Assembly: GCF_002866065.1 (NCBI RefSeq)
Contig: NZ_LNJZ01000005.1
Span: 166,143 to 230,142, forward strand
DNA length: 64,000 nucleotides
Direction of reading: 5' to 3'
Source of the DNA: Thiopseudomonas denitrificans
Lineage (GTDB): Bacteria; Pseudomonadota; Gammaproteobacteria; Pseudomonadales; Pseudomonadaceae
The position numbers and the translations under genes are program-made. This document shows, in pieces, positions 16,528 to 59,597 of this stretch. Position 1 is the first letter of the stretch, and the number at the start of each line of letters is the position of its first letter. Below the pieces are notes generated by a model, which did no database searches, had not been told where the DNA came from, and saw nothing but the letters and a program-made list of their open reading frames with translations.

Positions 16528-17277
16528 ATGAAGATTCTAGTAGCTGTCAAACGAGTGGTTGACCACAACGTAAAGGTACGCGTAAAGGCGGACAATACCG
16601 GCGTGGAACTGGCCAACGTAAAAATGTCCATGAACCCCTTCTGTGAAATCGGTGTGGAAGAAGCCATCCGCCTGAAGGAAAAAGGCGTCGCCAGTGAAGT
16701 GATCGCGGTGTCCGTCGGTCCTTCCGCTGCCCAGGAGCAACTGCGTACCGCACTGGCACTGGGTGCCGACCGTGCCATTCTGGTCGAGCAGGACGGTGAC
16801 ATCAGCTCGCTGACTGTGGCCAAGCTGCTCAAGGCGCTGGTCGACAAGGAACAGCCGGGTCTGGTCATGCTGGGCAAGCAGGCCATCGATACCGACAACA
16901 ACCAGACCGGCCAGATGCTGGGTGCACTGACCGGCTATGCGCAGGGCACCTTTGCATCCAAAGTTGAGGTGGACGGCGACAAGGTCAACGTTACCCGTGA
17001 AATCGACGGCGGCCTGCAAACCGTTGCACTGAAGCTGCCAGCCATCGTCACTACCGACCTGCGCCTGAACGAGCCGCGCTACGCCAAGCTGCCGGACATC
17101 ATGAAGGCCAAGAAAAAGCCGCTGGATACCGTGACCCCGGCCGACCTGGGCGTGACTGTGGCCTCTACCCTGACCACCCTGAAAGTGGAAGCACCGGCCC
17201 AGCGTAGCGCCGGCATCAAGGTGGCCGACGTGGCCACACTGGTCGAGAAACTGAAGAACGAAGCGAAGGTGATCTAA
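16528..17277 (+). CDS. etfB: Electron transfer flavoprotein subunit beta
   Basis: EtfB binds AMP and, with EtfA, forms the ETF heterodimer that collects electrons from acyl-CoA and other dehydrogenases. The 249-residue protein starts [20 protein letters not shown] and contains the family stretches [17 protein letters not shown] and [23 protein letters not shown]. The open frame extends to 16321, but ACGAGGAATCC before the ATG at 16528 and the conserved N-terminus define the start. Its stop shares one base with the etfA start. Confidence 0.97.
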
Positions 17278-47786: not shown

Positions 47787-47841
47787 CATAAAGGGGTCAG
47801 GTACATTTACGCCGCGCGTAAATGTACCTGACCCCTTTATG
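47787..47841. repeat. Palindromic repeat copy 1 (GGGGTCAGGTACATTTA family), after tamB
   Basis: A perfect inverted repeat: 25-bp arms beginning CATAAAGGGGTCAGGTACAT, with centre CCGCG. It starts at the base after the tamB stop. The A-rich left and T-rich right edges would let it act as a terminator from either strand. Confidence 0.9.
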
Positions 47842-48218
47842 GGTTTTCGTGTTACAATTCGCTCATCTTAGGCAGCCCCCGAGGCTTTATGCTTACTCCA
47901 CAAGCATCTTTTTCCCGCTCCATCTCTCCCCATCTGTTCGACAACCAATGGCGTAGTGGCCGTTAGCTTCTCTCCTGGTCTGCAAGTTCCCGGGCACCAG
48001 ACCCGCCCGAACCCTTAATTTCAGACACAAGGAATCTCTCAAAAAGCACTCTTCTTCCTTTAGAAAGCATGTGATCCTCATCCGGGCCAACCAGTGTGTT
48101 TGCCTGATGGAAATGGATACCGGTAAATGCGAACCATGTTATTCGCCAACACATGCATAGTGTTTTTTCAGAGCATCCCTGCTGCGTTGCCCAAGATGGC
48201 AACGCCAGAGAGGCGAAG
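47842..48218. other. Leader region before the paired SMR exporter genes (377 bp)
   Basis: No gene is supported; short minus-strand frames here lack family signals. The base composition is visibly less GC-rich than the flanks. A perfect hairpin (48184-48205) sits just upstream of the ribosome site. I looked for guanidine riboswitch signatures, which often precede SMR genes, and did not find them. The promoter is not obvious. Confidence 0.5.
48184..48205 (+). promoter_or_regulatory. Hairpin directly upstream of the mdtJ-like start
   Basis: GCGTTGCC and GGCAACGC form a perfect 8-bp stem with loop CAAGAT, ending 4 bases before the GAGAGG ribosome site of the SMR gene. It could affect translation start. 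Confidence 0.5.
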
Positions 48219-48584
48219 ATGTATTACTGGATCATGCTGGCCCTGGCTGTAGTGGCCGAGGTGGCCAGCACCATAGGCATGAAATATGCCGCAACCCATT
48301 CACCCGTGCTGGGCTATGCCTTCATGACGGTGATGATCTCCTTTTCCATGTATGCCTTTTCCCGGGCGGTGATGCACATCCCGCTGGCCGTATCCTATGC
48401 GGTATGGGAAGGCGCCGGCCTGTTCCTGATTGCCATGGCCGGCATGCTGCTGTTTGGCGAATACCTGAGCACCGGCCAGTTGCTGGCTGTTGCGCTGATG
48501 ATGTTCGGCCTGTTGCTGGTCACCTTCGACCAGGGACCGGACAAGAGCGAACAACCAGCCGAGCAAGGGAGGGTAGAGGCATGA
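48219..48584 (+). CDS. mdtJ: SMR-family exporter subunit, MdtJ-like
   Basis: A 121-residue four-helix small multidrug resistance protein. It resembles MdtJ, which with MdtI exports spermidine in E. coli: MYYWIMLALAVVAEVASTIGMKYA, then VSYAVWEGAGLFLI. The essential membrane glutamate is at position 14. The start ATG at 48219 follows GAGAGG; upstream in-frame codons are not coding-like. Its stop overlaps the next SMR gene by four bases, consistent with a heterodimeric transporter. The substrate in this organism is inference. Confidence 0.85.
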   Translation: MYYWIMLALAVVAEVASTIGMKYAATHSPVLGYAFMTVMISFSMYAFSRAVMHIPLAVSYAVWEGAGLFLIAMAGMLLFGEYLSTGQLLAVALMMFGLLLVTFDQGPDKSEQPAEQGRVEA

Positions 48585-48898
48585 TTCTTCCCGTATCCCT
48601 TCTGCTGGGCTCGGTCTCGCTGGACCTGGTGGCCAACTACTGCTTGAAGCGCTCCTGCGGTTTCCAGCGCATGGCCTGGGGCATTACCGGTTTGCTGATG
48701 ATCATTCTGGCCTTCGTTCTGCTCAGCATTGTGGTGCGCTATGTGCCGTTGAGTGTGGCCTATTCGGCCTGGGGCAGCCTGGGTGTGCTGGGTACCGTGA
48801 CCCTGGACCGCTTTCTGTTCAATTCACGCCTTGGCCGTCAGGGCATTATTGGCGTGATCTGCATTGTGCTGGGCATCATCGGATTGCAGCTGGCCTGA
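48581..48898 (+). CDS. mdtI: SMR-family exporter subunit, MdtI-like, with Asp in place of the key Glu
   Basis: A 105-residue SMR protein with four helices (MILPVSLLLGSVSLDLVANYCLKRS, SLSVAYSAWGSLGVLGT-type signature in helix 3). It pairs with the upstream subunit through an overlapping start and stop (ATGA). The helix-1 acidic residue is Asp15 where SMR proteins almost always have Glu, which may alter the proton or substrate affinity of this half of the dimer. Confidence 0.82.
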   Translation: MILPVSLLLGSVSLDLVANYCLKRSCGFQRMAWGITGLLMIILAFVLLSIVVRYVPLSVAYSAWGSLGVLGTVTLDRFLFNSRLGRQGIIGVICIVLGIIGLQLA

Positions 48899-48919
48899 TT
48901 GGGCGGGCGAAAATGCCAG

Positions 48920-48968
48920 AAAAGGGGCCAGGTACATTTATTGCCGGTAAATGTACCTGACCCCTTTT
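48920..48968. repeat. Palindromic repeat copy 2, between mdtI and the aminotransferase gene
   Basis: Arms of 21 bp (AAAAGGGGCCAGGTACATTTA minus its last base as shown, and its complement) flank the centre TTGCCGG. One position is mismatched (C opposite A), which becomes a G-U pair in minus-strand RNA. Confidence 0.88.
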
Positions 48969-49024
48969 CCTTTCTGTTCTGGCACAATCATCAGTCTTCT
49001 TCGCACGCAAGGAGCATTGCCGTC

Positions 49025-50167
49025 ATGCACAGCAAACTGGCCGATGTCGGCCTCACTATTTTTAGCCAGATGACCCAGCTGGCCCGGCAGCACGGAGCGC
49101 TCAACCTGTCCCAGGGCTTCCCGGACTTTCCCGCTCCGCTGGCGCTGAAGGAAGCGCTGACGAAGCACGTCATGGCCGATGCCAACCAGTACGCTCCCAT
49201 GACCGGACTGCCGGCGCTGCGTGAGCAGGTGGCCGCCCTGATCGATCGCTGTTATGGCGCGAGTGTATGTCCCGAGAACGAGATCACCATCACCCCGGGT
49301 GCCACCGAGGCGATTTTCTGTGCCATCCAGGCGCTGGTACATCCGGGCGATGAGGTGATCGTTCTTGACCCCTGCTATGACAGCTATGAACCTTCGGTAC
49401 GTCTGGCTGGTGGCATCACCCGCCATGTGCCGCTGGACGAAGGGTTCGCGCCGGACTGGGAGGCATTCGCCGCCGCCATCAGCGACCGCACCCGGCTGGT
49501 CATCATCAACAGTCCGCACAATCCCAGCGGCGCGGTGTTCACCAAAGCCGATCTGGATCAGCTGGCTGCCCTGACCGAATCCCGCGGCATCCATGTGCTC
49601 AGCGACGAAGTCTACGAGCACCTGGTGTATGACGGCTTGCAGCACCACAGCGTGCTGGCGCATCCGCAGCTTTATGGCCGTGCCGTTGTCGTCAGCTCTT
49701 TCGGCAAGAGTTTCCATGTCACCGGCTGGAAAACCGGCTATCTGGTGGCGCCGCCGGCGCTCAGTGCGGAAATCCGCAAGGTACACCAGTACGTCAGCTT
49801 CTGTGCACCTACTCCGTTGCAATGGGCACTGGTCGATTTCATGCAACAGCATCCCGAACATGTGGAGGAGCTGGCCGCTTTCTACCAGGCCAAGCGTGAC
49901 CGCTTGTGCGCCGTGCTGGCCGACTCGCGTTTCAGTTTTGCCCCTGCCGCCGGCACCTATTTTCAGCTGGTGGACTACAGTGCCATCCGTGATGATCTGG
50001 ATGATGTCGCCATGGCACGCTGGCTGACCGAGGAAAAGGGCATTGCCACCATTCCGCTGTCCGTTTTTTATCAGAACCCGCCAGAAGGGCAGCGCTGGTT
50101 GCGCCTGTGTTTTGCCAAGACCGCCGAGACCCTGGACCGGGCAGGAGAGTTGTTATGCAAGATTTGA
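49025..50167 (+). CDS. Methionine/aromatic aminotransferase, YbdL/MtnE-like
   Basis: A 380-residue PLP aminotransferase of class I/II, closest in style to E. coli YbdL, a methionine-preferring transaminase. Visible motifs are LNLSQGFPDFPAP, ITPGATEAIFCAIQALV, NSPHNPSGAVF, LSDEVYEHLVY and the PLP lysine in SSFGKSFHVTGWKTGY. The ATG at 49025 follows AAGGAG. Its end overlaps the next gene, an omega-amidase-like protein, by 13 bases; together they suit the transamination of glutamine with 2-oxo-4-methylthiobutyrate in methionine salvage, followed by hydrolysis of the ketoglutaramate formed. Confidence 0.9.
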   Translation: MHSKLADVGLTIFSQMTQLARQHGALNLSQGFPDFPAPLALKEALTKHVMADANQYAPMTGLPALREQVAALIDRCYGASVCPENEITITPGATEAIFCAIQALVHPGDEVIVLDPCYDSYEPSVRLAGGITRHVPLDEGFAPDWEAFAAAISDRTRLVIINSPHNPSGAVFTKADLDQLAALTESRGIHVLSDEVYEHLVYDGLQHHSVLAHPQLYGRAVVVSSFGKSFHVTGWKTGYLVAPPALSAEIRKVHQYVSFCAPTPLQWALVDFMQQHPEHVEELAAFYQAKRDRLCAVLADSRFSFAPAAGTYFQLVDYSAIRDDLDDVAMARWLTEEKGIATIPLSVFYQNPPEGQRWLRLCFAKTAETLDRAGELLCKI

Positions 50168-50961
50168 CCCCACGTGAAGACCTGAATGTGGCACTGGTGC
50201 AGGCACCGGTGATCCGCTTCGATACCGAAACCAACTTGAGTAATTTCGACCGCCTGTTGCAGCAGGTACAGGGAGCCGACCTGGTGCTGCTGCCGGAGAT
50301 GTTCAATACCGGTTTCAGCATGGATTCGGCCGAGCAGGCCGAGGCCGTCGATGGCCCCAGCACCCGCTGGCTGCAAGAGCAGGCGGCCCGGCTTGATGCA
50401 GTGGTGTGTGGCACGCTGACCATCAAGGCCGGCGAGGGCGACTACCGCAACCGGCTGGTCTGGGCCCGGCCCGATGGCAGTCTTGAGTACTATGACAAGC
50501 GCCACCTGTTCCGTATGGCCGGTGAGCACACCCGTTTCACTCCCGGTGACCGGCGGTTGATGGTCGAGCTGAAAGGCTGGCGCATCCGTCCGCTGGTCTG
50601 CTACGACCTGCGCTTTCCGGTATGGAGCCGTGATGCGCAAACCACCGACTTGCTGTTTTATCTGGCCAGCTGGCCACAGGTGCGTCGTGACGCCTGGAAC
50701 CGTCTGCTGCCGGCCCGCGCCATCGAGAACCTGTGCTATGTGGCTGGCGTTAACCGCATTGGTGAAGACCACAATGGCCACGCCCACAGTGGCGACTCCC
50801 AGGTGCTCGACTTCATTGGCGATAGCCTGCTGCATGTGCGTGACCAGGAAGGTGTCTATCAGGTGCGGCTCAGCGCGGCGAAGCTGGACCGCTTCAAGCA
50901 GCGTTTCCCGGCCTGGATGGATGCCGACGACTACAGCCTGCCGGATGCTGTTGAGAACTGA
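50155..50961 (+). CDS. Nitrilase-superfamily amidase, omega-amidase/YafV-like
   Basis: A 268-residue carbon-nitrogen hydrolase with the Glu-Lys-Cys triad: LLPEMFNTGF, YDKRHLF and VCYDLRFPVW. It resembles YafV and Nit2, which hydrolyse alpha-ketoglutaramate or related amides made by glutamine transaminases. The ATG at 50155, within the end of the aminotransferase gene, follows CAGGAGAG, so translation is coupled. dinB starts three bases after its stop. Confidence 0.9.
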   Translation: MQDLTPREDLNVALVQAPVIRFDTETNLSNFDRLLQQVQGADLVLLPEMFNTGFSMDSAEQAEAVDGPSTRWLQEQAARLDAVVCGTLTIKAGEGDYRNRLVWARPDGSLEYYDKRHLFRMAGEHTRFTPGDRRLMVELKGWRIRPLVCYDLRFPVWSRDAQTTDLLFYLASWPQVRRDAWNRLLPARAIENLCYVAGVNRIGEDHNGHAHSGDSQVLDFIGDSLLHVRDQEGVYQVRLSAAKLDRFKQRFPAWMDADDYSLPDAVEN

Positions 50962-50963
50962 CC

Positions 50964-52034
50964 GTGGCAACACGCAAGATCATCCATATTGACGCCGACT
51001 GCTTCTATGCGGCGGTGGAGATGCGCGAGGATCCTGCGCTGTACGGCAAGCCGGTGGCCGTGGGCGGCAATCCGCGTCAGCGTGGCGTGGTCGCCACCTG
51101 CAATTACGAGGCGCGTAGCTGGGGCGTGCATTCGGCGATGTCGATGGCGCAGGCGCTGAAAATCTGCCCTGACCTGATCGTGATTCCGGTACGCATGGAA
51201 CTGTACCGGCAGGTTTCGCAACAAATCCACCAGATCCTGCAGGACTACACCGAGCTGATCGAGCCCCTGTCGCTAGACGAAGCCTTTCTGGATGTCACCG
51301 ACAGCGACAACTGCAAGGGCAGCGCCACCCTGATGGCGCAGGAGATCCGCAGCCGGGTCTGGCAGGACCTGCGGCTGGTGGTGTCAGCCGGTGTCGCGCC
51401 GAACAAATTTCTGGCCAAGATCGCCTCCGACTGGCGCAAACCCAACGGGTTGTTCACCATCACGCCGGACGAAGTGGATGACTTCGTGTTGCAACTGCCG
51501 GTGAACAAGCTGCATGGCGTCGGCAAGGTCACGGCGCAGAAACTGGAGCGGCTGGGCATCGACAGCTGCGCCCGGCTGCGCGAGTTTGACCGGCTGGAGC
51601 TGGTGCGCCAGTTCGGCAAGTTTGGCGAGCGTCTGTGGCAGCTGGCGCACGGCATCGACGAGCGGCCGGTGGAGGCCAACAGCAGACGCCAGAGCGTCAG
51701 TGTGGAAGAGACCTACAGCGAGGACCTGCCGGACCTGAAGGCATGCCTGGACAAGCTGCCCGAACTGATGACCAGCCTGCAGCGGCGCATGGGGCGGCTG
51801 GACGAACATTACCGGATCGACCGGCCGCACGTGAAAATCAAGTTTCATGACTTCACCCAGACCACCCTGGAACAGGCCGGGGCACTGGTCAGTCAGGAGC
51901 GCTTTGCCATGATGCTGGCGGCGGCCCACGCCCGCGGCAACAAGCCGGTACGCCTGCTCGGCATCGGTGTGCGACTGGAAGACCTGAAAGGCCGGGCACA
52001 GCAGCTGGAGCTGCCATTGCCGGCTGATAACTAA
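50964..52034 (+). CDS. dinB: DNA polymerase IV
   Basis: DinB is a Y-family translesion polymerase. The 356-residue protein begins with GTG and has the catalytic motifs IHIDADCFYAAVE and LSLDEAFLDVT, the helix-hairpin-helix LHGVGKVTAQKLERLGI, the little-finger domain, and a C-terminal beta-clamp-binding motif QLELPL. In many bacteria it is an SOS gene with a LexA box; here it is the third gene of an apparent transaminase-amidase-dinB unit and I see no LexA box before it or before the aminotransferase. Its stop codon lies inside the start of palindromic repeat copy 3. Confidence 0.96.
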   Translation: MATRKIIHIDADCFYAAVEMREDPALYGKPVAVGGNPRQRGVVATCNYEARSWGVHSAMSMAQALKICPDLIVIPVRMELYRQVSQQIHQILQDYTELIEPLSLDEAFLDVTDSDNCKGSATLMAQEIRSRVWQDLRLVVSAGVAPNKFLAKIASDWRKPNGLFTITPDEVDDFVLQLPVNKLHGVGKVTAQKLERLGIDSCARLREFDRLELVRQFGKFGERLWQLAHGIDERPVEANSRRQSVSVEETYSEDLPDLKACLDKLPELMTSLQRRMGRLDEHYRIDRPHVKIKFHDFTQTTLEQAGALVSQERFAMMLAAAHARGNKPVRLLGIGVRLEDLKGRAQQLELPLPADN

Positions 52035-52123
52035 AGGGGGCCAAACAAAGAGGTCAGGTGCATTTATTGCCAGCAATAAATGTACCTGACCTCTTTGTTT
52101 CATAAGTGTACCTGACCCCTTTA
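52032..52123. repeat. Palindromic repeat copy 3, nested with a partial second copy, after dinB
   Basis: The inner element has 27-bp arms starting AAACAAAGAGGTCAGGTGCA (52043-52069) and their complement (52074-52100), with one G-T pair and centre CCAG. Around it are TAAAGGGG (52032-52039) on the left and a right half-copy GTGTACCTGACCCCTTTA (52106-52123) on the right, so the outer ends also pair. It overlaps the dinB stop codon and separates dinB from the converging TSUP gene. Confidence 0.88.
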
Positions 52124-52132
52124 ATTTGGCTT

Positions 52133-52879
52133 TTACCCTAGCAGTTTCTGAGCGGCTACGCTCAGGCTGACTACCAGCAGCATCAGGGCAAAAATGCGCT
52201 GCAGCATGATGCCGCCCAGGCGAACGGCCAGTTTATTGCCTAGCAGTACGCCGGCGGCACCGCCGGCAAACAGGCCGCTGAGCAGGTCGGCGGGTGGATT
52301 GGCCGAGCCCAGATAGATGAAGAAGCCCGAGCCCGATACCAGTGCTATCACCGCCATCGAGGTGGCTGCCGCAGCCAGCATGCCTAAAGGACTGAACCAG
52401 AGCAGGGCGGGCACGATCAGAAAGCCGCCGCCTACGCCAAGCAGCCCCGACAGCACTCCGACCAGCAAGCCGGTAATGGCCAAAATGACTGGGCGCAGTA
52501 ACTGGCCGGTTTTTTCCGGCAGTTGGGCCTGACGCCACATGCGCTGTGCCGACCAGAGCACCAGCAGGCAGAAAGCCCAGACCAGCAGGGTTTCCGGTAC
52601 AAAATGTCCCAACTTTTGGCCCAGCCAGCTGCCGGGCACGCCGCAGAGGGCGAGAATGAGCACGATGCGTGGCTGGATATCGCCGCTGCGCCAGCGTCCC
52701 AGCGCCCCGATCAGCGCCGACAGGCCAACGGCACCCAGACTGACGCCGATGGCATCGCGCATCGGCAGATGCAGGCTGAGCAGCAGCGGCAATGCCACCA
52801 GCGAGCCGCCGGCGCCGGTCAGTCCCAGCAGGCTGCCGAGTATCAGGCCGATGCCCAGTGTTTCCAGTGGAAATGCCAT
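52133..52879 (-). CDS. TSUP-family membrane transporter (TauE/SafE type)
   Basis: A 248-residue membrane protein with about eight helices and the two family repeats LILGSLLGLTGAGGSLVALPLLL and LLVGVLSGLLGVGGGFLIVPALL. Members export or import sulfite, sulfoacetate, taurine-derived or other organosulfur anions; the substrate here is unknown. The ATG at 52879 gives the usual N-terminus; upstream open sequence is not membrane-like. It converges with dinB and diverges from the next gene. Confidence 0.88.
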   Translation of the reverse strand: MAFPLETLGIGLILGSLLGLTGAGGSLVALPLLLSLHLPMRDAIGVSLGAVGLSALIGALGRWRSGDIQPRIVLILALCGVPGSWLGQKLGHFVPETLLVWAFCLLVLWSAQRMWRQAQLPEKTGQLLRPVILAITGLLVGVLSGLLGVGGGFLIVPALLWFSPLGMLAAAATSMAVIALVSGSGFFIYLGSANPPADLLSGLFAGGAAGVLLGNKLAVRLGGIMLQRIFALMLLVVSLSVAAQKLLG

Positions 52880-53067
52880 GTTGCCTGCCAGTTGCTGATG
52901 AGGGGCCGGTGAGGGGTTCCGGTGTGCCCAATGATACCTGCGGTTATGGCAGCTTGCAGTATGAAATCGGCGGCGGCTCGAGTATCCTGCCTTGTCCCGT
53001 TGCCGGATATCGTTCTTCACGAAGCCGGACACGCGGGGCAAAATTTTTATCCGGAGATTCAACCCAA

Positions 53068-53298
53068 ATGCAACAAGACGAGTCCGCAGACAAGATTTCA
53101 CCGCGCGCAAAGGTCATGGGCATATCAGTGGTGTCGCTACTGTTGTGTACGGCGGTGTCGATCATCGCCATCATCAATGACCGCATGACCATAGCCGGCG
53201 TGTTTGCCGTGCTGGCGGTCGGCTCGCACCTGAATTTCTGGCGGCTGCTGAACAAGAGCCATCGTGAGAGCGAGGCTGCAGCCGGCACGGACGACTGA
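53068..53298 (+). CDS. Small hypothetical membrane protein
   Basis: A 76-residue protein (MQQDESADKISPRAKVMGISVV) with two likely membrane helices (about 15-37 and 42-58) and charged ends. GGAG lies 11 bases before the ATG. It ends 5 bases before the AEC permease gene, so the two are probably cotranscribed. No family is recognised. Confidence 0.68.
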   Translation: MQQDESADKISPRAKVMGISVVSLLLCTAVSIIAIINDRMTIAGVFAVLAVGSHLNFWRLLNKSHRESEAAAGTDD

Positions 53299-53303
53299 AT
53301 CCG

Positions 53304-54185
53304 GTGCTGCTTACCCTGCTGAATATCATCATCCCGGTATTCGCCGTGACCGGGCTGGGTTACCTGTTTGCGCGCAAACGCAGCAAGGCGCCGGAAATGG
53401 ATTTCATCAACTCGGTCAACGTACACCTGTTCTGTCCGATGCTGATCTTTTCCGCCCTGCTGGCCAATCCGGTTGATCTGGCCAGTGACTGGGCGCTGGT
53501 GGTGGCCGGAGTGGCCATCATCCTGCTGCCGGGTCTGCTGCTCTGGTTTGTGCGGCCGGCGGCAGTCAATTCCTCGGCTTTCCTGATGACCGGCATGTTC
53601 CGCAACACCGGCAACATGGGCATTCCGCTGTTGATGCTGGCCTATGGCAAGGAAGCGCTGGGCGACATCATAGTGCTGTTCGTGATTTCCAATACGCTGC
53701 ACTTTTCGGTCGGCATCTGGCTGATCTCGCGCAGTCGCGGCGCCTGGGGCTGGCTGCGCAATCCCAATGTCTGGGCCGCGGTACTGGGCATCACGCTGGC
53801 CCCGGTGCGCGAGCAGATCCCGCTGTTCATCCAGACCACGGTCGACATGCTGGGGCAGGTCAGTATTCCATTGATGCTATTCAGCCTGGGTGTGCGCATG
53901 GCTTCCGGACGCATCAGTCAGCTGGGCCTGGCCCTGCGCATCAACCTGCTGTATCTGGTGGCGGGGCTGCTCAGCGTGACGCTGATCCTGCTGGTGCTGC
54001 CGCTGAGCCCGCTTTGGGTGAAGATGCTGGTGGTGACGGCTGCGCTGCCGCCGGCGGTGCTCAACTATCTGCTCAGCGAGCAGTACCAGGCTGACACGGA
54101 TACCGTAGCCAGTGTGGTGCTGCTGGGCAACCTGCTCGCCGTAGTGGTGATGCCGCTGGTGATCGCGCTGACGCTGACCTGGTAA
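53304..54185 (+). CDS. AEC-family permease (auxin efflux carrier type)
   Basis: A 293-residue membrane protein with about ten helices. It resembles bacterial AEC transporters such as malonate or other organic-acid carriers: FCPMLIFSALLANPVDL, MFRNTGNMGIPLLMLAYG, QVSIPLMLFSLGVRMA and AALPPAVLNYLLSEQYQADTDTVASVVLLG. It starts with GTG at 53304. Substrate unknown. A palindromic repeat begins ten bases after its stop. Confidence 0.88.
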   Translation: MLLTLLNIIIPVFAVTGLGYLFARKRSKAPEMDFINSVNVHLFCPMLIFSALLANPVDLASDWALVVAGVAIILLPGLLLWFVRPAAVNSSAFLMTGMFRNTGNMGIPLLMLAYGKEALGDIIVLFVISNTLHFSVGIWLISRSRGAWGWLRNPNVWAAVLGITLAPVREQIPLFIQTTVDMLGQVSIPLMLFSLGVRMASGRISQLGLALRINLLYLVAGLLSVTLILLVLPLSPLWVKMLVVTAALPPAVLNYLLSEQYQADTDTVASVVLLGNLLAVVVMPLVIALTLTW

Positions 54186-54194
54186 ATATCCAAT

Positions 54195-54248
54195 ATAAAG
54201 GGGTCAGGTACATTTAACCCACGGGTTAAATGTACCTGACCCCTTTAT
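54195..54248. repeat. Palindromic repeat copy 4, after the AEC permease gene
   Basis: Perfect 26-bp arms (beginning ATAAAGGGGTCAGGTACATT, ending in AACCC and its complement) around a two-base centre AC. Confidence 0.92.
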
Positions 54249-54360
54249 TGAACAGTGCAGGATCAAGTTGTCCGACAGCAGGTTTTGCAGCAGCCGGACG
54301 CCTGTGTTTAACTACGCCGCTTCCCGGATGTGACCGCATCCGCCAATACGGAACATTTTT

Positions 54361-55569
54361 GTGAAAAACAGTGCAATAGGCAGCACCTTCATTGTTGCCG
54401 GTACCGCGCTTGGCGCGGGTATGCTGGCGATGCCGGTGGCCACTGCCGGCATTGGTTTCTGGACCGCACTGGCGATGCTGTTCGGCCTCTGGCTGGTGAT
54501 GAGCTATACCGCGCTGCTGTTGGTCGAGGTGTACCAGCACAACGATGCCAACACGGGGCTGGGCTCGCTTTCGCACCAGTATCTGGGCCGTACCGGCCAG
54601 TGGCTGGCACGATTGGCCATGCCGTTTCTGATGTATTCGCTGGTCGCCGCCTATCTGGTTGGTGGTGGTGACATCATTACCATTTCGGTCAGCAAGCTGC
54701 TTGGCTTCGAGCTGGCCGGCTGGCTTGGCATTCTCGCTTTTGCCGTGGTTGGCGGCGGTGTGGTGGTTCTTGGCACCGGCTCGGTGGACCGGGTCAACCG
54801 GGTGCTGTTCGCCATCAAGGTGGTGTTTCTCGCGCTGATGCTGGTGATGCTGCTGCCCCATGTCGAGCAGGTCAACCTGCTGGCCATGCCGGTGCGTCAG
54901 GCGCTGATCCTGTCGGCCATTCCGGTGGTGTTCACCTCGTTCGGTTTTCATGGCAGCGTGCCCAGCATCGTTAGCTACATGCAGGGTGATACCCGCAAGC
55001 TGCGGCTGATCTTCATTGCCGGCAGCGCCATCCCGCTGGTGGTCTATGTGCTCTGGCAGCTGGCGACTTTGGGCAGCATTGCCACAGATACCTTCCTGGG
55101 TGTGCTGGCCCAGCGCTCGGGCATCAACGGTTTGCTTGGTGCCATTCAGGCAGTGGCGCAAAGCGGTAAAGTCGAGATGGCGGTGCGCCTGTTTGCCGGA
55201 CTGGCGCTGGCGACCTCTTTTTTGGGTGTGGCGCTTGGGCTGTTCGATTTTCTGGCCGACACCTTCCGCCGCCAGAATACGGTACGCGGCCGCTTGCAAA
55301 CCGGACTGCTGACCTTCTTGCCGCCACTGTTTTTTGCCCTGTTCTACCCGAACGGCTTCATCTTTGCGCTGGGCTTTGCCGCCATTGCGCTGTCGGTTTT
55401 GTCGCTGATTCTGCCACCACTGCTGGTGCGTCGTTCACGGCGCATGGATGCTGATGGCTACCGGGTGGCCGGTGGTGCTCCGGCATTGTGGGGCGTGTTC
55501 GTGCTGGGTGTGGCGATCATCCTGATCCAGCTGTTGATCGTGGCCGGCTGGTTGCCGGACGTGGGGTAG
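54361..55569 (+). CDS. Aromatic amino acid permease (TyrP/Mtr type)
   Basis: A 402-residue member of the hydroxy/aromatic amino acid permease family with about eleven membrane helices. The N-terminus [28 protein letters not shown] and the central [21 protein letters not shown] are diagnostic. It should import tyrosine or tryptophan with protons. It starts with GTG at 54361, 110 bases after repeat copy 4, and ends before a bidirectional terminator. Confidence 0.92.
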
Positions 55570-55587
55570 GAAATAAATCTGCAAATG

Positions 55588-55618
55588 AAAACGGCCACCC
55601 GGGAGGTGGCCGTTTTTG
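55588..55618. terminator. Bidirectional terminator between the permease and the copper operon
   Basis: AAAACGGCCAC and GTGGCCGTTTTT pair around CCGGGAG, with flanking A and T runs; both genes converge on it. Confidence 0.88.
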
Positions 55619-55633
55619 TTGCTGTGCGAAGAT

Positions 55634-56080
55634 TTATAGACGCTGGTACAAACCGATGACATTGCCGTCCTTGTCCAGACTCAGCACTTCCAGGCTGCCG
55701 GGCTTTTCCGGGCCCATGCCGGGCGAGTTCAGCGGCATGCCGGGCAGGGCAATACCGCGAATGTCCGGCCGTTCCTTGAGCATCTTGTTGATGGCGGCGA
55801 CCGGTACGTGACCTTCCACCACATAGCCGTCAATCTCTACCGTATGGCAGCTGGCCGCCTTGTGGGTACCCAGCTTGCGTTTGACCGGAGACATGTCCTG
55901 GTGGTCGATGCGGGTGGTCTTGAAGCCGTTCTCGTCCAGATAGTCGGCATAGGCGGTGCAGCAACCGCACCAGGGGTCCTTGTGCAGGGTGACTTCCAGC
56001 GGCTCGCTGGCAATGGCCTGGTTGGCAAAAGCTAAGGTCATGGCACTGCCCAGCAGTGCGGCGGAAAAAATGTTACGCAT
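55634..56080 (-). CDS. DUF411 metal-binding periplasmic protein
   Basis: A 148-residue precursor with a signal peptide (SAALLGSAMTLAFANQAIAS) and the DUF411 fold: KDPWCGCCTAYADYLDENGF with the CGCC metal or thiol motif, then GTHKAASCHTVEIDGYVVEGHVP and DIRGIALPGMPLNSPGM. These proteins accompany copper and silver resistance genes and probably bind Cu(I). A GAGGA site precedes the ATG at 56080. It is the last gene of copA-cueR-(Cys-rich)-DUF411. Confidence 0.9.
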   Translation of the reverse strand: MRNIFSAALLGSAMTLAFANQAIASEPLEVTLHKDPWCGCCTAYADYLDENGFKTTRIDHQDMSPVKRKLGTHKAASCHTVEIDGYVVEGHVPVAAINKMLKERPDIRGIALPGMPLNSPGMGPEKPGSLEVLSLDKDGNVIGLYQRL

Positions 56081-56135
56081 GTTGTAGTCCTCAAAAATCA
56101 GCTGCAGGCGGCATTGGCCAGCCTGTTCAAAATGG

Positions 56136-56471
56136 TTATGCGGCGAGGACGGAACGGGGCGGTGGCTTGAGTGGCGCATAGACCGGCCCCGAGGGTTGAT
56201 GCTGCAGCTCGGGGAACAGGTTGTAGCCGGTACTGATGGCCAGAGTCAGGTTGCTCTGGTGGATGCTGGCGCAGCTGCTGCAGCCCTGGTGCACCTGGAT
56301 GCAGCAGTCGACCGCAAGCTCTTCAGCCGGTGCCGGACAGTCCAGGCAGTGGCTGGCTACCGTGATGCTGTCATGGACTGGCGCAGTATCAGCTGGCAAC
56401 AGGCCGGCATTGGCGACCAGGCCGGTCACCAGCAGCAGTTGCAGCAGCATCACGCGCAGGATGTATCCCAT
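56136..56471 (-). CDS. Cys-rich secreted protein of the copper operon
   Basis: A 111-residue protein with a signal peptide (MGYILRVMLLQLLLVTGLVANAG) and a Cys/His-rich centre, SHCLDCPAPAEELAVDCC followed by VHQGCSSCASIHQS, six Cys in about 25 residues. It ends in a Pro-rich tail (APLKPPPRSVLAA). The start overlaps no other gene but lies three bases after the cueR stop. The setting suggests periplasmic copper binding; I cannot place it firmly in a named family, though small DUF2946-like proteins near copper genes look similar. Confidence 0.8.
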   Translation of the reverse strand: MGYILRVMLLQLLLVTGLVANAGLLPADTAPVHDSITVASHCLDCPAPAEELAVDCCIQVHQGCSSCASIHQSNLTLAISTGYNLFPELQHQPSGPVYAPLKPPPRSVLAA

Positions 56472-56474
56472 GTA

Positions 56475-56879
56475 TCAGCTATCCGTTGAGGGTTTCAGGT
56501 GGTCGATGATGGCACATTCGGGGCGCTCATCACCATGACAGTGGTCAACCCAGTCGTGCAATTCATTGCGCATGGTCTGCATCTGGCGGATGCTTTCGTC
56601 CAGCTCGGCAATGTACTGTTCGACCAGTGCTTTGACATCGGCGCTGTGGCGTTGTTCATTTTGCCACAGCCCCAGCAGCTGTCCGATGCGCTCCAGTGAA
56701 AAGCCCATGTCACGGGCACGGCGGATGAACTGCAGACGCTGGATGTCGGTATCGCTGTAATGGCGGTAGCCCGATTCGCTGCGCCGGGCCGGCGGCAGCA
56801 AACCGGTTTCCTCGTAATAGCGGATCATCTTGCGGCTGATGCCTGAGGCTTCGGCGGCCTGGCCGATGGTATGGCTCAT
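56475..56879 (-). CDS. cueR: Copper-responsive MerR-family regulator CueR
   Basis: CueR senses Cu(I) and activates copper efflux genes by untwisting promoters with long spacers. The 134-residue protein has the MerR helix-turn-helix (MSHTIGQAAEASGISRKMIRYYEETGLLPPARR), a dimerisation helix and the metal loop HCHGDERPECAII, where two Cys with seven residues between them match Cys112 and Cys120 of E. coli CueR. It lies just downstream of copA on the same strand, with repeat copy 5 between. Confidence 0.94.
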   Translation of the reverse strand: MSHTIGQAAEASGISRKMIRYYEETGLLPPARRSESGYRHYSDTDIQRLQFIRRARDMGFSLERIGQLLGLWQNEQRHSADVKALVEQYIAELDESIRQMQTMRNELHDWVDHCHGDERPECAIIDHLKPSTDS

Positions 56880-56899
56880 GAGGGTTTCCCGTTTTGTAC

Positions 56900-56935
56900 A
56901 AAGGGTCAGATACAGTCAAATGTACCTGACCCCTT
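56900..56935. repeat. Palindromic repeat copy 5, degenerate, between copA and cueR
   Basis: AAAGGGTCAGATACA and TGTACCTGACCCCTT flank GTCAAA. The right arm is intact, and the left arm has lost one G and changed another base, so pairing is imperfect. Confidence 0.75.
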
Positions 56936-56947
56936 CGCATGGCGCAC

Positions 56948-59410
56948 CTACGCCAGCACCGCCTTCACCTTGCGCAGACGCAGCGCATTGCTGACCACGA
57001 ACACGCTGGACATGGCCATGGCGCCGGCGGCAAACATCGGCGACAGCAGTGTGCCGTTGACCGGATAGAGGATACCGGCGGCAACCGGAATCAGCGCGGC
57101 GTTGTAGGCAAAGGCCCAGAACAGGTTCTGCTTGATGTTGCGCAGCGTGCTGCGGGAAATCTGCAGGGCGTTGACCACACCGGTCAGCTGGCCGGACATC
57201 AGTACCACATCGGCGGCGTCGATGGCGATGTCGGTACCGGTACCAATGGCGATGCCGATGTCGGCGCTGGCCAGCGCAGGAGCGTCGTTGATGCCGTCGC
57301 CGACAAAGGCCAGCTTGCCGTATCTGGCCTGCAGCTGCTGCACGGTCTCGACCTTCTGCGCGGGCATCACCTCGGCGACCACCTCGTCGATATCCAGCTG
57401 ATCGGCAATTGCCTGGGCCGTGTGCTGGTTGTCACCACTGATCATCACCACCTTCAGGCCCAGCTCGTGCAGGGCGCGGATGGCGGCCGGTGTGCTGGCC
57501 TTGATCGGATCAGCCACCGCCAGCATGGCGGCAAGCTGGCCATCAATCGCCAGATACATCGGTGTCTTGCCTTCTTTTGCCAGCTGGCCTGCAGCATCGG
57601 CAAAGCCGGAAATGTCGACCGCCAGCTGCTTCATCAGGCGGCTGGAACCGGCATGCAGTTGCTGGCCATCGACCGTGCCGCGTACACCCAGACCGGTCAG
57701 GGAATCAAATTCGCTGACCGGCAACAGTTGCAGCTGTTTATCCTCGGCGGCGGCGACAATGGCACGCGATACCGGGTGGCTGGACTGGTGCTCCAGCGAT
57801 GCCTGCAGTTGCAGGGCACGGGTTTCGTCCACGCCTGCCGCAACCACGAAGTCGGTCAGCACGGGACGACCTTCGGTCAGGGTGCCGGTTTTATCGACAG
57901 CCACTACCTTGGCATCCTGCAGGCCCTGCAGCGCGGTACCCTGACGGAACAGCACGCCCAGCTGGGCAGCACGTCCGGTGCCGACCATGATGGAAGTCGG
58001 TGTCGCCAGGCCCATGGCGCAGGGGCAGGCGATGATCAGCACTGCCACTGCGTTGACCAGTGCCAGCGTCAGTGCGGGCGATGGCCCAAAGATGACCCAG
58101 ACCAGAAAGGTCAGTGCGGCTGCGCCCATGACCGCCGGCACAAACCAGGCAGTGATCTGGTTGACCAGATTTTGGATCGGCAGACGGCTGCCCTGTGCCT
58201 GTTCCACCAAGCGGATGATTTGTGACAGCAGGGTATCGCCACCGACTTTCTGCACTTCCATGCGCAGCACGCCGGTCTGGTTGATGGTGCCGCCGACCAG
58301 CGGGCTGCCTTCGGTTTTCTGTACCGGTACCGGCTCGCCGTTGATCATCGACTCGTCGACAAAGCTGTCACCGGAGGTGACCACGCCATCCAGCGGAATG
58401 CGCTCGCCGGGGCGGATTTCCAGCGTCTTGCCGACAGTGACTTCCTCGATGGGCACATCCTTGGCGTTGCCGCAGCAGGTGATGGTGCGTGCGGTCTTTA
58501 CCTGCAGCTTGAGCAGGCCCTGAATCGCCTCTGAGGTGTTGCTCTTGGCCTTGTTCTCCATATAACGGCCAAGCAGGATCAGCGCGATGATCACGCCCAC
58601 CGCTTCGTAATAGACGTTGACCGTACCCTCTGGCAAAACCCCGGGAATGAAGGTGGCGACCAGTGAATAACCAAAGGCAGAACCGGTACCCAGTGCGACC
58701 AAAGCATTCATGTCCGGCTGCCAGCGGATCAGGCCGCGCACACCGGCCTTGATCAGCGGCCAGCCCGGGCCGAAAAACACGCCGGCGGCCAGTGCCGCCT
58801 GGATGATCCAGCTGGTTTTCTGGCCGATCAGCGCGTGCAGCCAGTCATGGAAGGATGGAAATACATGGCCGCCCATCTCCAGGATGAACAGTGGAATGGC
58901 CAGTGCAAACGCTACAAACAGGGACTTCTTCAGGCTCTCGACGGTTTCGGCGAACTGCTCGCTTGGGTCGGCTTGCTGTGTGGCTGGGGCATCGTCAATG
59001 CGCTTGGCCGGATAGCCGCTGTCGGTGAGCATGGCGGTCAGGGCGGCAAAGTCCGCGCCTGCATGCTGGATGCGGGCCTTGCCGGTGGCCAGGTTGACCT
59101 CGGCGTTGATCACGCCGGGAAAGGTGGCTATCTGCTTTTCCACCCGGCCGACACAGGAGGCGCAGGTCATGCCCTTGATCGCCAGTTCGGCCTGCTGACC
59201 CTGCGGCTCGAAGCCCAGTGCTTCGATGGCGTTGACCAGGGCTGCGGTGGTTTGTTGCTCGTCATGGGTGACCCGCGCCCGGCCGGTGGCCAGGTTGACA
59301 TTGACCTCGCTGACGCCGGCCATGGCCGACAGCTCGCGCTCGATACGTCCGACGCAGGACGCACAGGTCATGCCCTTGACGGGGATTTCAAGCTGATGGG
59401 TGCTGGACAT
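56948..59410 (-). CDS. copA: Copper-exporting P1B-type ATPase CopA
   Basis: CopA pumps Cu(I) from the cytoplasm to the periplasm. The 820-residue protein has two N-terminal heavy-metal domains, each with GMTCASC (about residues 13-19 and 80-86), eight membrane helices with the metal site CPC in IIACPCAMGLATP, the phosphorylation motif DKTGTLTEG and the hinge GDGINDAPALASADIGIA. The start is at 59410 (MSSTHQLEIPVKGMTCASC), not the upstream ATG. A Cys pair in the actuator region (TITCCGNAKD) is unusual. A CueR-type promoter lies upstream. Confidence 0.97.
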   Translation of the reverse strand: MSSTHQLEIPVKGMTCASCVGRIERELSAMAGVSEVNVNLATGRARVTHDEQQTTAALVNAIEALGFEPQGQQAELAIKGMTCASCVGRVEKQIATFPGVINAEVNLATGKARIQHAGADFAALTAMLTDSGYPAKRIDDAPATQQADPSEQFAETVESLKKSLFVAFALAIPLFILEMGGHVFPSFHDWLHALIGQKTSWIIQAALAAGVFFGPGWPLIKAGVRGLIRWQPDMNALVALGTGSAFGYSLVATFIPGVLPEGTVNVYYEAVGVIIALILLGRYMENKAKSNTSEAIQGLLKLQVKTARTITCCGNAKDVPIEEVTVGKTLEIRPGERIPLDGVVTSGDSFVDESMINGEPVPVQKTEGSPLVGGTINQTGVLRMEVQKVGGDTLLSQIIRLVEQAQGSRLPIQNLVNQITAWFVPAVMGAAALTFLVWVIFGPSPALTLALVNAVAVLIIACPCAMGLATPTSIMVGTGRAAQLGVLFRQGTALQGLQDAKVVAVDKTGTLTEGRPVLTDFVVAAGVDETRALQLQASLEHQSSHPVSRAIVAAAEDKQLQLLPVSEFDSLTGLGVRGTVDGQQLHAGSSRLMKQLAVDISGFADAAGQLAKEGKTPMYLAIDGQLAAMLAVADPIKASTPAAIRALHELGLKVVMISGDNQHTAQAIADQLDIDEVVAEVMPAQKVETVQQLQARYGKLAFVGDGINDAPALASADIGIAIGTGTDIAIDAADVVLMSGQLTGVVNALQISRSTLRNIKQNLFWAFAYNAALIPVAAGILYPVNGTLLSPMFAAGAMAMSSVFVVSNALRLRKVKAVLA

Positions 59411-59442
59411 GGCTGTCTCCAGAGAAATGATTCGATGTACCA

Positions 59443-59473
59443 AGGATAAGGCTTGCCACGATGGGAAGGTCAA
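59443..59473 (-). promoter_or_regulatory. CueR-type promoter of copA
   Basis: On the minus strand TTGACC (59473-59468) and TATCCT (59448-59443) are separated by 19 bases, the long spacer used by MerR-family activators. The spacer holds an imperfect dyad (CCTTCCC ... GGCAAG) similar to the E. coli copA operator. Confidence 0.75.
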
Positions 59474-59547
59474 GGAAGCCTGTGCTGCAATTACGGTTTT
59501 ATAGGGGAACCTTGTCCGTTTCATGCTTTCAGAGTGCCCATCAGGAG

Positions 59548-59597
59548 CATTTTAAAGGGGGCAGGCCCATTTAAATGGACCTGCCCCCTTTAAAATG
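59548..59597. repeat. Palindromic repeat copy 6, loopless variant between copA and the FKBP gene
   Basis: Two 25-bp arms meet without a loop; the left begins CATTTTAAAGGGGGCAGG and the right ends CCTGCCCCCTTTAAAATG. Compared with other copies both arms carry the same change (GGGGTCAGG to GGGGGCAGG), and GTACAT is changed to G(C/T)CCAT. One C-A mismatch remains. Confidence 0.85.

Follow-up and report, generated by a model that had tools for sequence, protein, structure and literature searches.

The palindromes of the window

The stretch of DNA analysed here (the window; G000:C2:166143–230142, 64,000 nucleotides) is part of the 2.84-Mb genome of Thiopseudomonas denitrificans, which is assembled in 9 contigs and listed as 100% complete. 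Six palindromes of one family, E1–E6, with the common arm GGGGTCAGGTACATTT, all lie within positions 47787–59597 (Table 1). An initial annotation, made by reading the sequence, had placed six such elements here, and every one is present at the coordinates it gave. It had seen none in the first 47 kb, and a covariance model of the family likewise finds no locus in the window beyond E1–E6 at E-values up to 1. With up to three mismatches allowed, the arm is matched 13 times in the window, where shuffled sequences would give 0.26, and the sole match outside the cluster, at position 16622, carries three mismatches. In a scan of the window for stems with loops of at most 13 nucleotides nine palindromes were found, the five highest scoring of which are E1–E4 and E6. 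Folding of the elements as single-stranded DNA gave z-scores from −4.0 (E5) to −14.3 (E1).

Table 1 The six palindromic elements of the window and their surroundings
Element	Positions	Features
E1	47787–47841	Perfect palindrome, 26-bp arms, 3-nt centre; adjoins the TAG stop of a TamB gene (PF04357); diverged orthologue in G195
E2	48920–48968	Between small multidrug resistance (+) and aminotransferase (+) genes; one arm position unpaired
E3	52032–52123	GAGGTC in both arms of the inner palindrome; outer half-arms of GGGG type
E4	54195–54248	Perfect palindrome, 26-bp arms; between membrane transport (PF03547, +) and Trp/Tyr permease (+) genes
E5	56900–56935	Short and imperfect; on one side the 3′ end of a P-type ATPase gene (−), on the other the start of a MerR-family gene (−)
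E6	59548–59597	Both arms contain GGGGGCAG; the genes on its two sides, P-type ATPase (−) and FKBP isomerase (+), are divergent

The earlier description of the elements as near-perfect palindromes fits most of them, but E5 is weak, scoring 32.3 bits in the covariance model against 57–77 bits for the other five, and E3 is not a single palindrome, its inner palindrome (52043–52100) being flanked by the outer half-arms. Similarly, a position at gene ends holds for E1–E5 but not for E6. E3 overlaps the TAA stop codon of an impB/mucB/samB-type polymerase gene, and the end of a TauE gene faces it. Neighbouring genes were taken as the longest open frames, with those of E1, E2 and E6 corrected by reading and Pfam. 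Rfam, applied to the window at gathering scores, gave 5 tRNAs and nothing more.

Copy number, clustering and gene context

The covariance model was built from 21 copies (alignment A1; 20 from T. denitrificans and 1 from its relative G196), leaving out three of the 23 T. denitrificans copies (C6:12749, C6:194789 and E5). It locates 23 copies in the 2.84 Mb of this genome (45 hits over the two strands), six of them within 11.8 kb of the window, and among three relatives of the same genus 13 in G195, 6 in G196 and 0 in G194. When 23 positions were drawn uniformly 200,000 times over the whole genome, intergenic and genic sequence alike, six never fell within 11.8 kb and five or more did so at a frequency of 4.5e-5; by this measure the clustering, which had been noticed from the sequence, is beyond chance. 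An effect of the replication origin or terminus was considered and set aside, the GC skew being of one sign throughout the window. The exact arm, searched for in 194 genomes drawn evenly from the order, occurred in one, that of T. denitrificans itself; with at most one mismatch it is found in all 4 genomes of the genus.

For counts of position and pairing, a set of 22 T. denitrificans copies was used. Outside it are C7:35606 and C8:69254, whose arms are single or degenerate, and C6:194789, which came to light later. Ten of the 22 lie between codirectional, five between convergent and six between divergent genes, and one is inside a gene. As raw counts, 15 of the 21 copies outside genes have some gene's 3′ end beside them and 6 have none. 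Single-arm copies also occur (C7:35606 and G195:C4:89208). The latter (L211) is at the 3′ end of G195's copy of the PF13679 methyltransferase gene, where the TGA of TGACCCC appears to act as stop codon, as it does in a transposase gene of another genome (L032).

Orthologous sites in related species

Fifteen sites, namely those of 14 of the 23 copies and of the single arm C7:35606, were compared with G194, G195 and G196 at about 80% DNA identity, some of them in one relative only; C8:22045 aligned at one flank only and the other 8 copies were compared just with ten fetched loci of the relatives. An element is present in a relative at 8 of the 15 sites, two of these being judged by eye, and a ninth, that of E2, holds a weak match in G195 (23.8 bits in the covariance model). 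The model itself identified the counterparts of E1, E6, C2:32353, C2:306750 and C8:27057; at C6:70462 one exact arm is left, and those of E3 (a related quasi-palindrome in G195) and C2:25523 were recognised by eye. E6 has a counterpart, with GGGGTCAG in one arm, in both G195 and G196, while E1 and E3 have theirs in G195. In the relatives compared, the orthologous site was empty or unrelated for E4 (G195), E5 (G194, G195 and G196), C7:35606, C7:37959, C7:79313 and C7:80412; at C7:79313 both G195 and G196 have a short spacer with no element. At the E5 site (L190, L191) G195 and G196 carry a different repeat-like sequence, CACCCTGCGCGCAGTCGCAGGGTCCATGGATGCTGC.

Since 8 of the 15 compared sites are occupied in relatives, recent spread, as proposed in the initial annotation, does not serve as the general cause; E1, E2 (weakly), E3 (by eye) and E6 all have diverged counterparts at orthologous places. 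The family thus predates the divergence of these species, and its copies have turned over since then. Both arms of the copy at C2:306750 have the consensus sequence in T. denitrificans and G196 alike, although the flank is 83% identical, which points to constraint on, or exchange of, the arm sequence itself.

A copy inside a methyltransferase gene

The copy C8:27057 (C8:27051–27104; L209:7052–7105) lies in frame within a gene for a PF13679 methyltransferase. The gene is open across the copy in G195 and G196 as well, so that three species keep the palindrome, and in both relatives its centre is different and still paired. The G196 copy has GGGGTTAGG in each arm; read by eye, the change in one arm turns Ser into Leu and that in the other is silent. 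Homologues were aligned for 40 of 120 listed (5688 were found), and two of them, P0004 and P0006, have an ordinary segment of similar length at the site of the element. The element therefore appears, from this alignment, to have replaced about 18 codons and not to have lengthened the protein. It is hard to see how upkeep as a terminator would operate inside such a gene.

Copies match themselves

The core hardly varies among the T. denitrificans copies, nor does the run of A that precedes it. The fourth to sixth bases outside the core and the first four inside it differ between the 22 copies and match within each copy. The copies were picked by their arm sequence, and the null expectation was obtained by shuffling arms between them. 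Matches within a copy numbered 65 of 132 at bases 5–10 outside the arm (38.5 when shuffled), 80 of 88 at bases 1–4 outside (69.1) and 46 of 66 at the four inner positions (21.8), values reached by 0 of 2000 shuffles in each case, and 7 of 17 at inner bases 5–8 (2.2; reached by 1 of 2000). In the conserved core of the 22 copies there was no significant matched excess (303 of 348 against 295.2; reached by 159 of 2000); in that zone one-base gaps shift three of the copies out of register by a base. Counted over alignment A1, changes found on both sides number 46 against 16.0 after shuffling (0 of 500).

Palindromes of the same type in other bacteria were treated in the same way. Ten from Nitrincola have private, self-complementary centres (inner positions 37 of 40 against 24.9; 0 of 2000) and a weak match at the outer bases (22 of 40 against 16.2; 72 of 2000), where a constant run of A is uninformative; their cores are identical (160 of 160), partly because the scan demanded the exact arm. 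Six from Thalassotalea match at the centre (10 of 13 against 4.3; 30 of 2000) and not significantly elsewhere. At L045:955–1092 of Nitrincola, several tandem left half-elements ending near the hairpin tip are followed by one full palindrome, which by eye looks like replication slippage at a hairpin.

Of the departures from consensus in 19 copies of G195 and G196, 28 of 115 are mirrored in the other arm against 11.1 after shuffling (0 of 5000); the count is biased towards matched changes, since the model used to find these copies gives credit for pairing, and two sites, E6 and C8:27057, are represented from both species. A direct count between orthologues gave 10 mirrored against 60 other changed columns where about 3.3 mirrored would be expected, with crude alignments and gaps. 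We met no account of private self-complementary edges in such repeats in a limited literature search that took in few subscription journals; in the same search the 15-base arm and its complement appeared in no paper, and GGGGTCAGG was found together with palindromes only in apparently unrelated papers.

Y1 genes in the genus and elsewhere

The T. denitrificans genome has a single match to PF01797 (Y1_Tnp), at C2:290636–290911 (L009:1426–1776). This is outside the window, in keeping with the initial annotation, which had seen no such gene there. The gene is broken by an internal TAG and stands among palindromes of the GTGCGAATTCATTCGCAC type, which form a second family of repeats in T. denitrificans, with no GGGGTCAGGTACATTT arm within 1.5 kb at up to three mismatches. 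Palindromes similar to GTGCGAATTCATTCGCAC are also seen near C8:27057 and C7:37959. The search that had been suggested, for a RAYT or Y1 gene flanked by the same arms, found none in this genome, and in this the family is unlike GTAG REPs and REPINs. Elsewhere in the genus the Y1 matches are IS200-like genes of 145–146 aa in G195 and G196, a 34-residue fragment at a contig edge of G195 and one 161-aa match in G194. The GGGGTCAGGTACATTT family looks orphaned in its own genome, because the one Y1 gene there is broken and is beside a different repeat.

The motif GGGGWSAS is common to some TIRs of TIRYT genes ('TIRtrons', 2013; PMC3733652), and GGGGTCAG, the commonest arm head of the T. denitrificans copies, fits it. 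In two Thalassotalea loci (L139, L145) a Y1 gene of 231–234 aa has a palindrome, GGGGTCAGGTACAATA, upstream of it and an arm of like type on its downstream side. An GGGGTCAGGTACA-type arm upstream of the Y1 gene and a similar arm downstream are found in these two and also in L147 (Planctomycetota), which has GGGGTCAGGTACC on both sides, and L072 (Lysobacterales), where the downstream arm has one changed base. At L029 GGGGTCAGGTTCACTT stands on both sides of the Y1 gene; L032 has an arm downstream only and L100 upstream only. The palindromes had been likened to those beside RAYT genes, and these similar arms around Y1 genes in Thalassotalea and other genomes bear out that kinship. Among the 19 loci examined for it (L131–L149), a GGGGWSAS arm is within 300 bases of the Y1 match in 7 and absent in 12. 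Nine of the Y1 proteins were tested; all nine match PF01797, and they match the REP-associated tyrosine transposase model NF047646 below its cut-off, at 55–74 of 80 bits.

Arms of a different type, GGGGTCAGAGTC, accompany the Y1 genes of L095 and of Nitrincola (L134). In the latter the gene lies between complete GGGGTCAGAGTC palindromes (L134:1386–2213), although the Nitrincola palindromes retrieved for comparison belong to the GGGGTCAGGTACATTT type. Wide horizontal spread, as suggested by exact matches to the arm across many phyla (at least 109 stretches), was also considered. Single matches carry little weight, because by our estimate chance alone would supply about 120 exact 16-mers in 257 Gb when two strands are counted, and that reading was dropped; the claim of kinship rests on loci with paired arms or with an arm-flanked Y1 gene.

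Discussion

We propose that E1–E6 are TIRYT-type inverted repeats, fused into palindromes and apparently orphaned in their own genome, each a head-to-head pair of the sequence found on the flanks of TIRYT-like Y1 genes in other bacteria. A TIRYT would once have spread the arms, and the palindromes would since have been kept matched by template switching between the arms during replication. We give this reading as a whole a probability of roughly 0.55. In the supposed process, a polymerase stalled at the hairpin would switch to its own nascent strand, so that one arm, with its edges and centre, would be copied into the other; such copying would produce paired changes and draw private flanks into the palindrome. 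In E. coli template switching is described as improving the symmetry of imperfect inverted repeats (PMC7202029), and it has been put forward as a process by which RNA hairpins arise and are kept (PMC8794818). If one arm plus its edges were recopied from the other, complementarity private to a copy should appear to either side of a constant arm, as it does here, and we regard template switching as the likeliest means of upkeep. The lack of a significant excess in the core, the unchanged arms of C2:306750 and the fact that in Nitrincola the centre alone is clearly private are evidence against it, and we also count against the proposal that the one Y1 match of Nitrincola carries a different arm. 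Compensatory selection on the hairpin stays a live rival, because it too yields mirrored changes.

Such selection would be at work if the elements were bidirectional intrinsic terminators, in which the transcribed hairpin is kept paired and compensatory changes follow. The A-rich left and T-rich right edges suggest this, as do the many copies at 3′ ends, with E1 abutting and E3 overlapping a stop codon, and a lax consensus scan in which E1, E3 and E4 are terminator-like (E2, E5 and E6 are unlisted). The runs of T are, however, of 3–4 in E1, E2, E4 and E6, compared with 5–6 at the end of the window's four remaining strong hairpins, although some copies elsewhere in the genome also have 5–6. As divergent genes flank 6 of the 21 intergenic copies, and a further copy is kept in frame within the methyltransferase gene of three species, the two-way terminator role given to the elements earlier is not supported as a general one; E1, E3 and E4 could, from their sequence, still be active locally. 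We consider upkeep through termination unlikely to account for the family. Slightly less likely again is the continuing or recent transposition by a RAYT-like enzyme that had been put forward at first, with local hopping making the cluster. The near-identical arms within the genome, the clustering and the six compared sites that lack the element in relatives, C7:79313 among them, would suit it; set against these are the 8 occupied sites (two by eye, with a weak ninth), a genome in which no intact Y1 gene of this type was found, and centres and edges that vary from copy to copy, as those of an element freshly copied would not.

Much the same small chance may be allowed to the idea that the palindromes are sites for a sequence-specific host protein that recognises the arm in its hairpin form, with selection on both arm sequence and pairing; the protein might be a domesticated transposase or a factor of the nucleoid or of repair. 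An arm that is nearly constant while centres vary, its identity in two species at C2:306750 and the palindrome kept inside a gene agree with this, but the core-to-core length ranges from 28 to 46 in the 22 copies and many copies of the relatives have drifted. Each copy might instead have been born perfect, by one inverted copying of a single inserted arm and its new flanks, and have only decayed thereafter. This would explain the private complementarity on both sides of the arm, and single-arm copies do exist (C7:35606, G195:C4:89208); the orthologues of E1 and C8:27057, on the other hand, differ in both arms or in their centres and yet pair, for which decay alone is insufficient, and we hold this to be the least probable of these readings. 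Classic REPs were rejected as an identity for the family, there being no GTAG tag, and the Y1 relic of the genome sitting among GTGCGAATTCATTCGCAC repeats without the GGGGTCAGGTACATTT arm.

The elements resemble TIRYT TIRs (PMC3733652) in the GGGGWSAS head, in the inverted arrangement around a Y1 gene elsewhere and in forming moderate families with singles and dimers. They differ in being head-to-head palindromes with private self-complementary centres and edges and in that no cognate gene was found in the genome; for TIRYT TIRs a cognate transposase in the same genome is usual and not required, that study having seen no obvious correlation (PMC3733652). Subclass 2.1 of TnpAREP takes in 20 of 26 TIRYTs and 291 of 292 RAYT group 1 sequences (PMC6006769). 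A resemblance to it, by model score, is seen in the genes flanked by such arms elsewhere, which encode Y1 proteins of 227–257 aa scoring below the cut-off for REP-associated tyrosine transposases. Mirrored changes are what quasipalindrome template-switch mutation (PMC7202029, PMC8794818) would produce, and we infer from it that pairing should reach into private flanks; it is a mutation process rather than an element family, and no event was observed here. The Rickettsia RPEs likewise include palindromes in frame within a protein gene, but they end in a CGTC tag (PMC3733652) that the C8:27057 copy does not have. With classic GTAG REPs and REPINs the family shares mostly intergenic palindromes and kinship to a Y1-type partner. 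It is unlike them in its long near-perfect stem, its orphan state and its edges, which are A-rich or private; as the initial annotation had stated, no GTAG marker is present at the hairpin edges of the copies. What seems to be new, judging from the aligned copies, is their mode of variation, private to each copy and complementary within it.

Long-lived families of bacterial palindromes are usually accounted for by transposase activity or by selection on the hairpin. A wider proposition, which we advance only tentatively and hold to be less probable than the reading of the family itself, is that such hairpins mend themselves: they would outlive their transposase by arm-on-arm copying, absorb their flanks and evolve even inside a gene, needing neither transposition nor selection for an RNA function. 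If arms do mend each other in replication, covariation in a repeat would not alone be evidence of RNA function and repeat families could outlast the loss of a transposase. Natural material for testing this is provided by the 23 copies that share an arm sequence, their diverged orthologues in the genus, the in-frame copy and the second set in Nitrincola.
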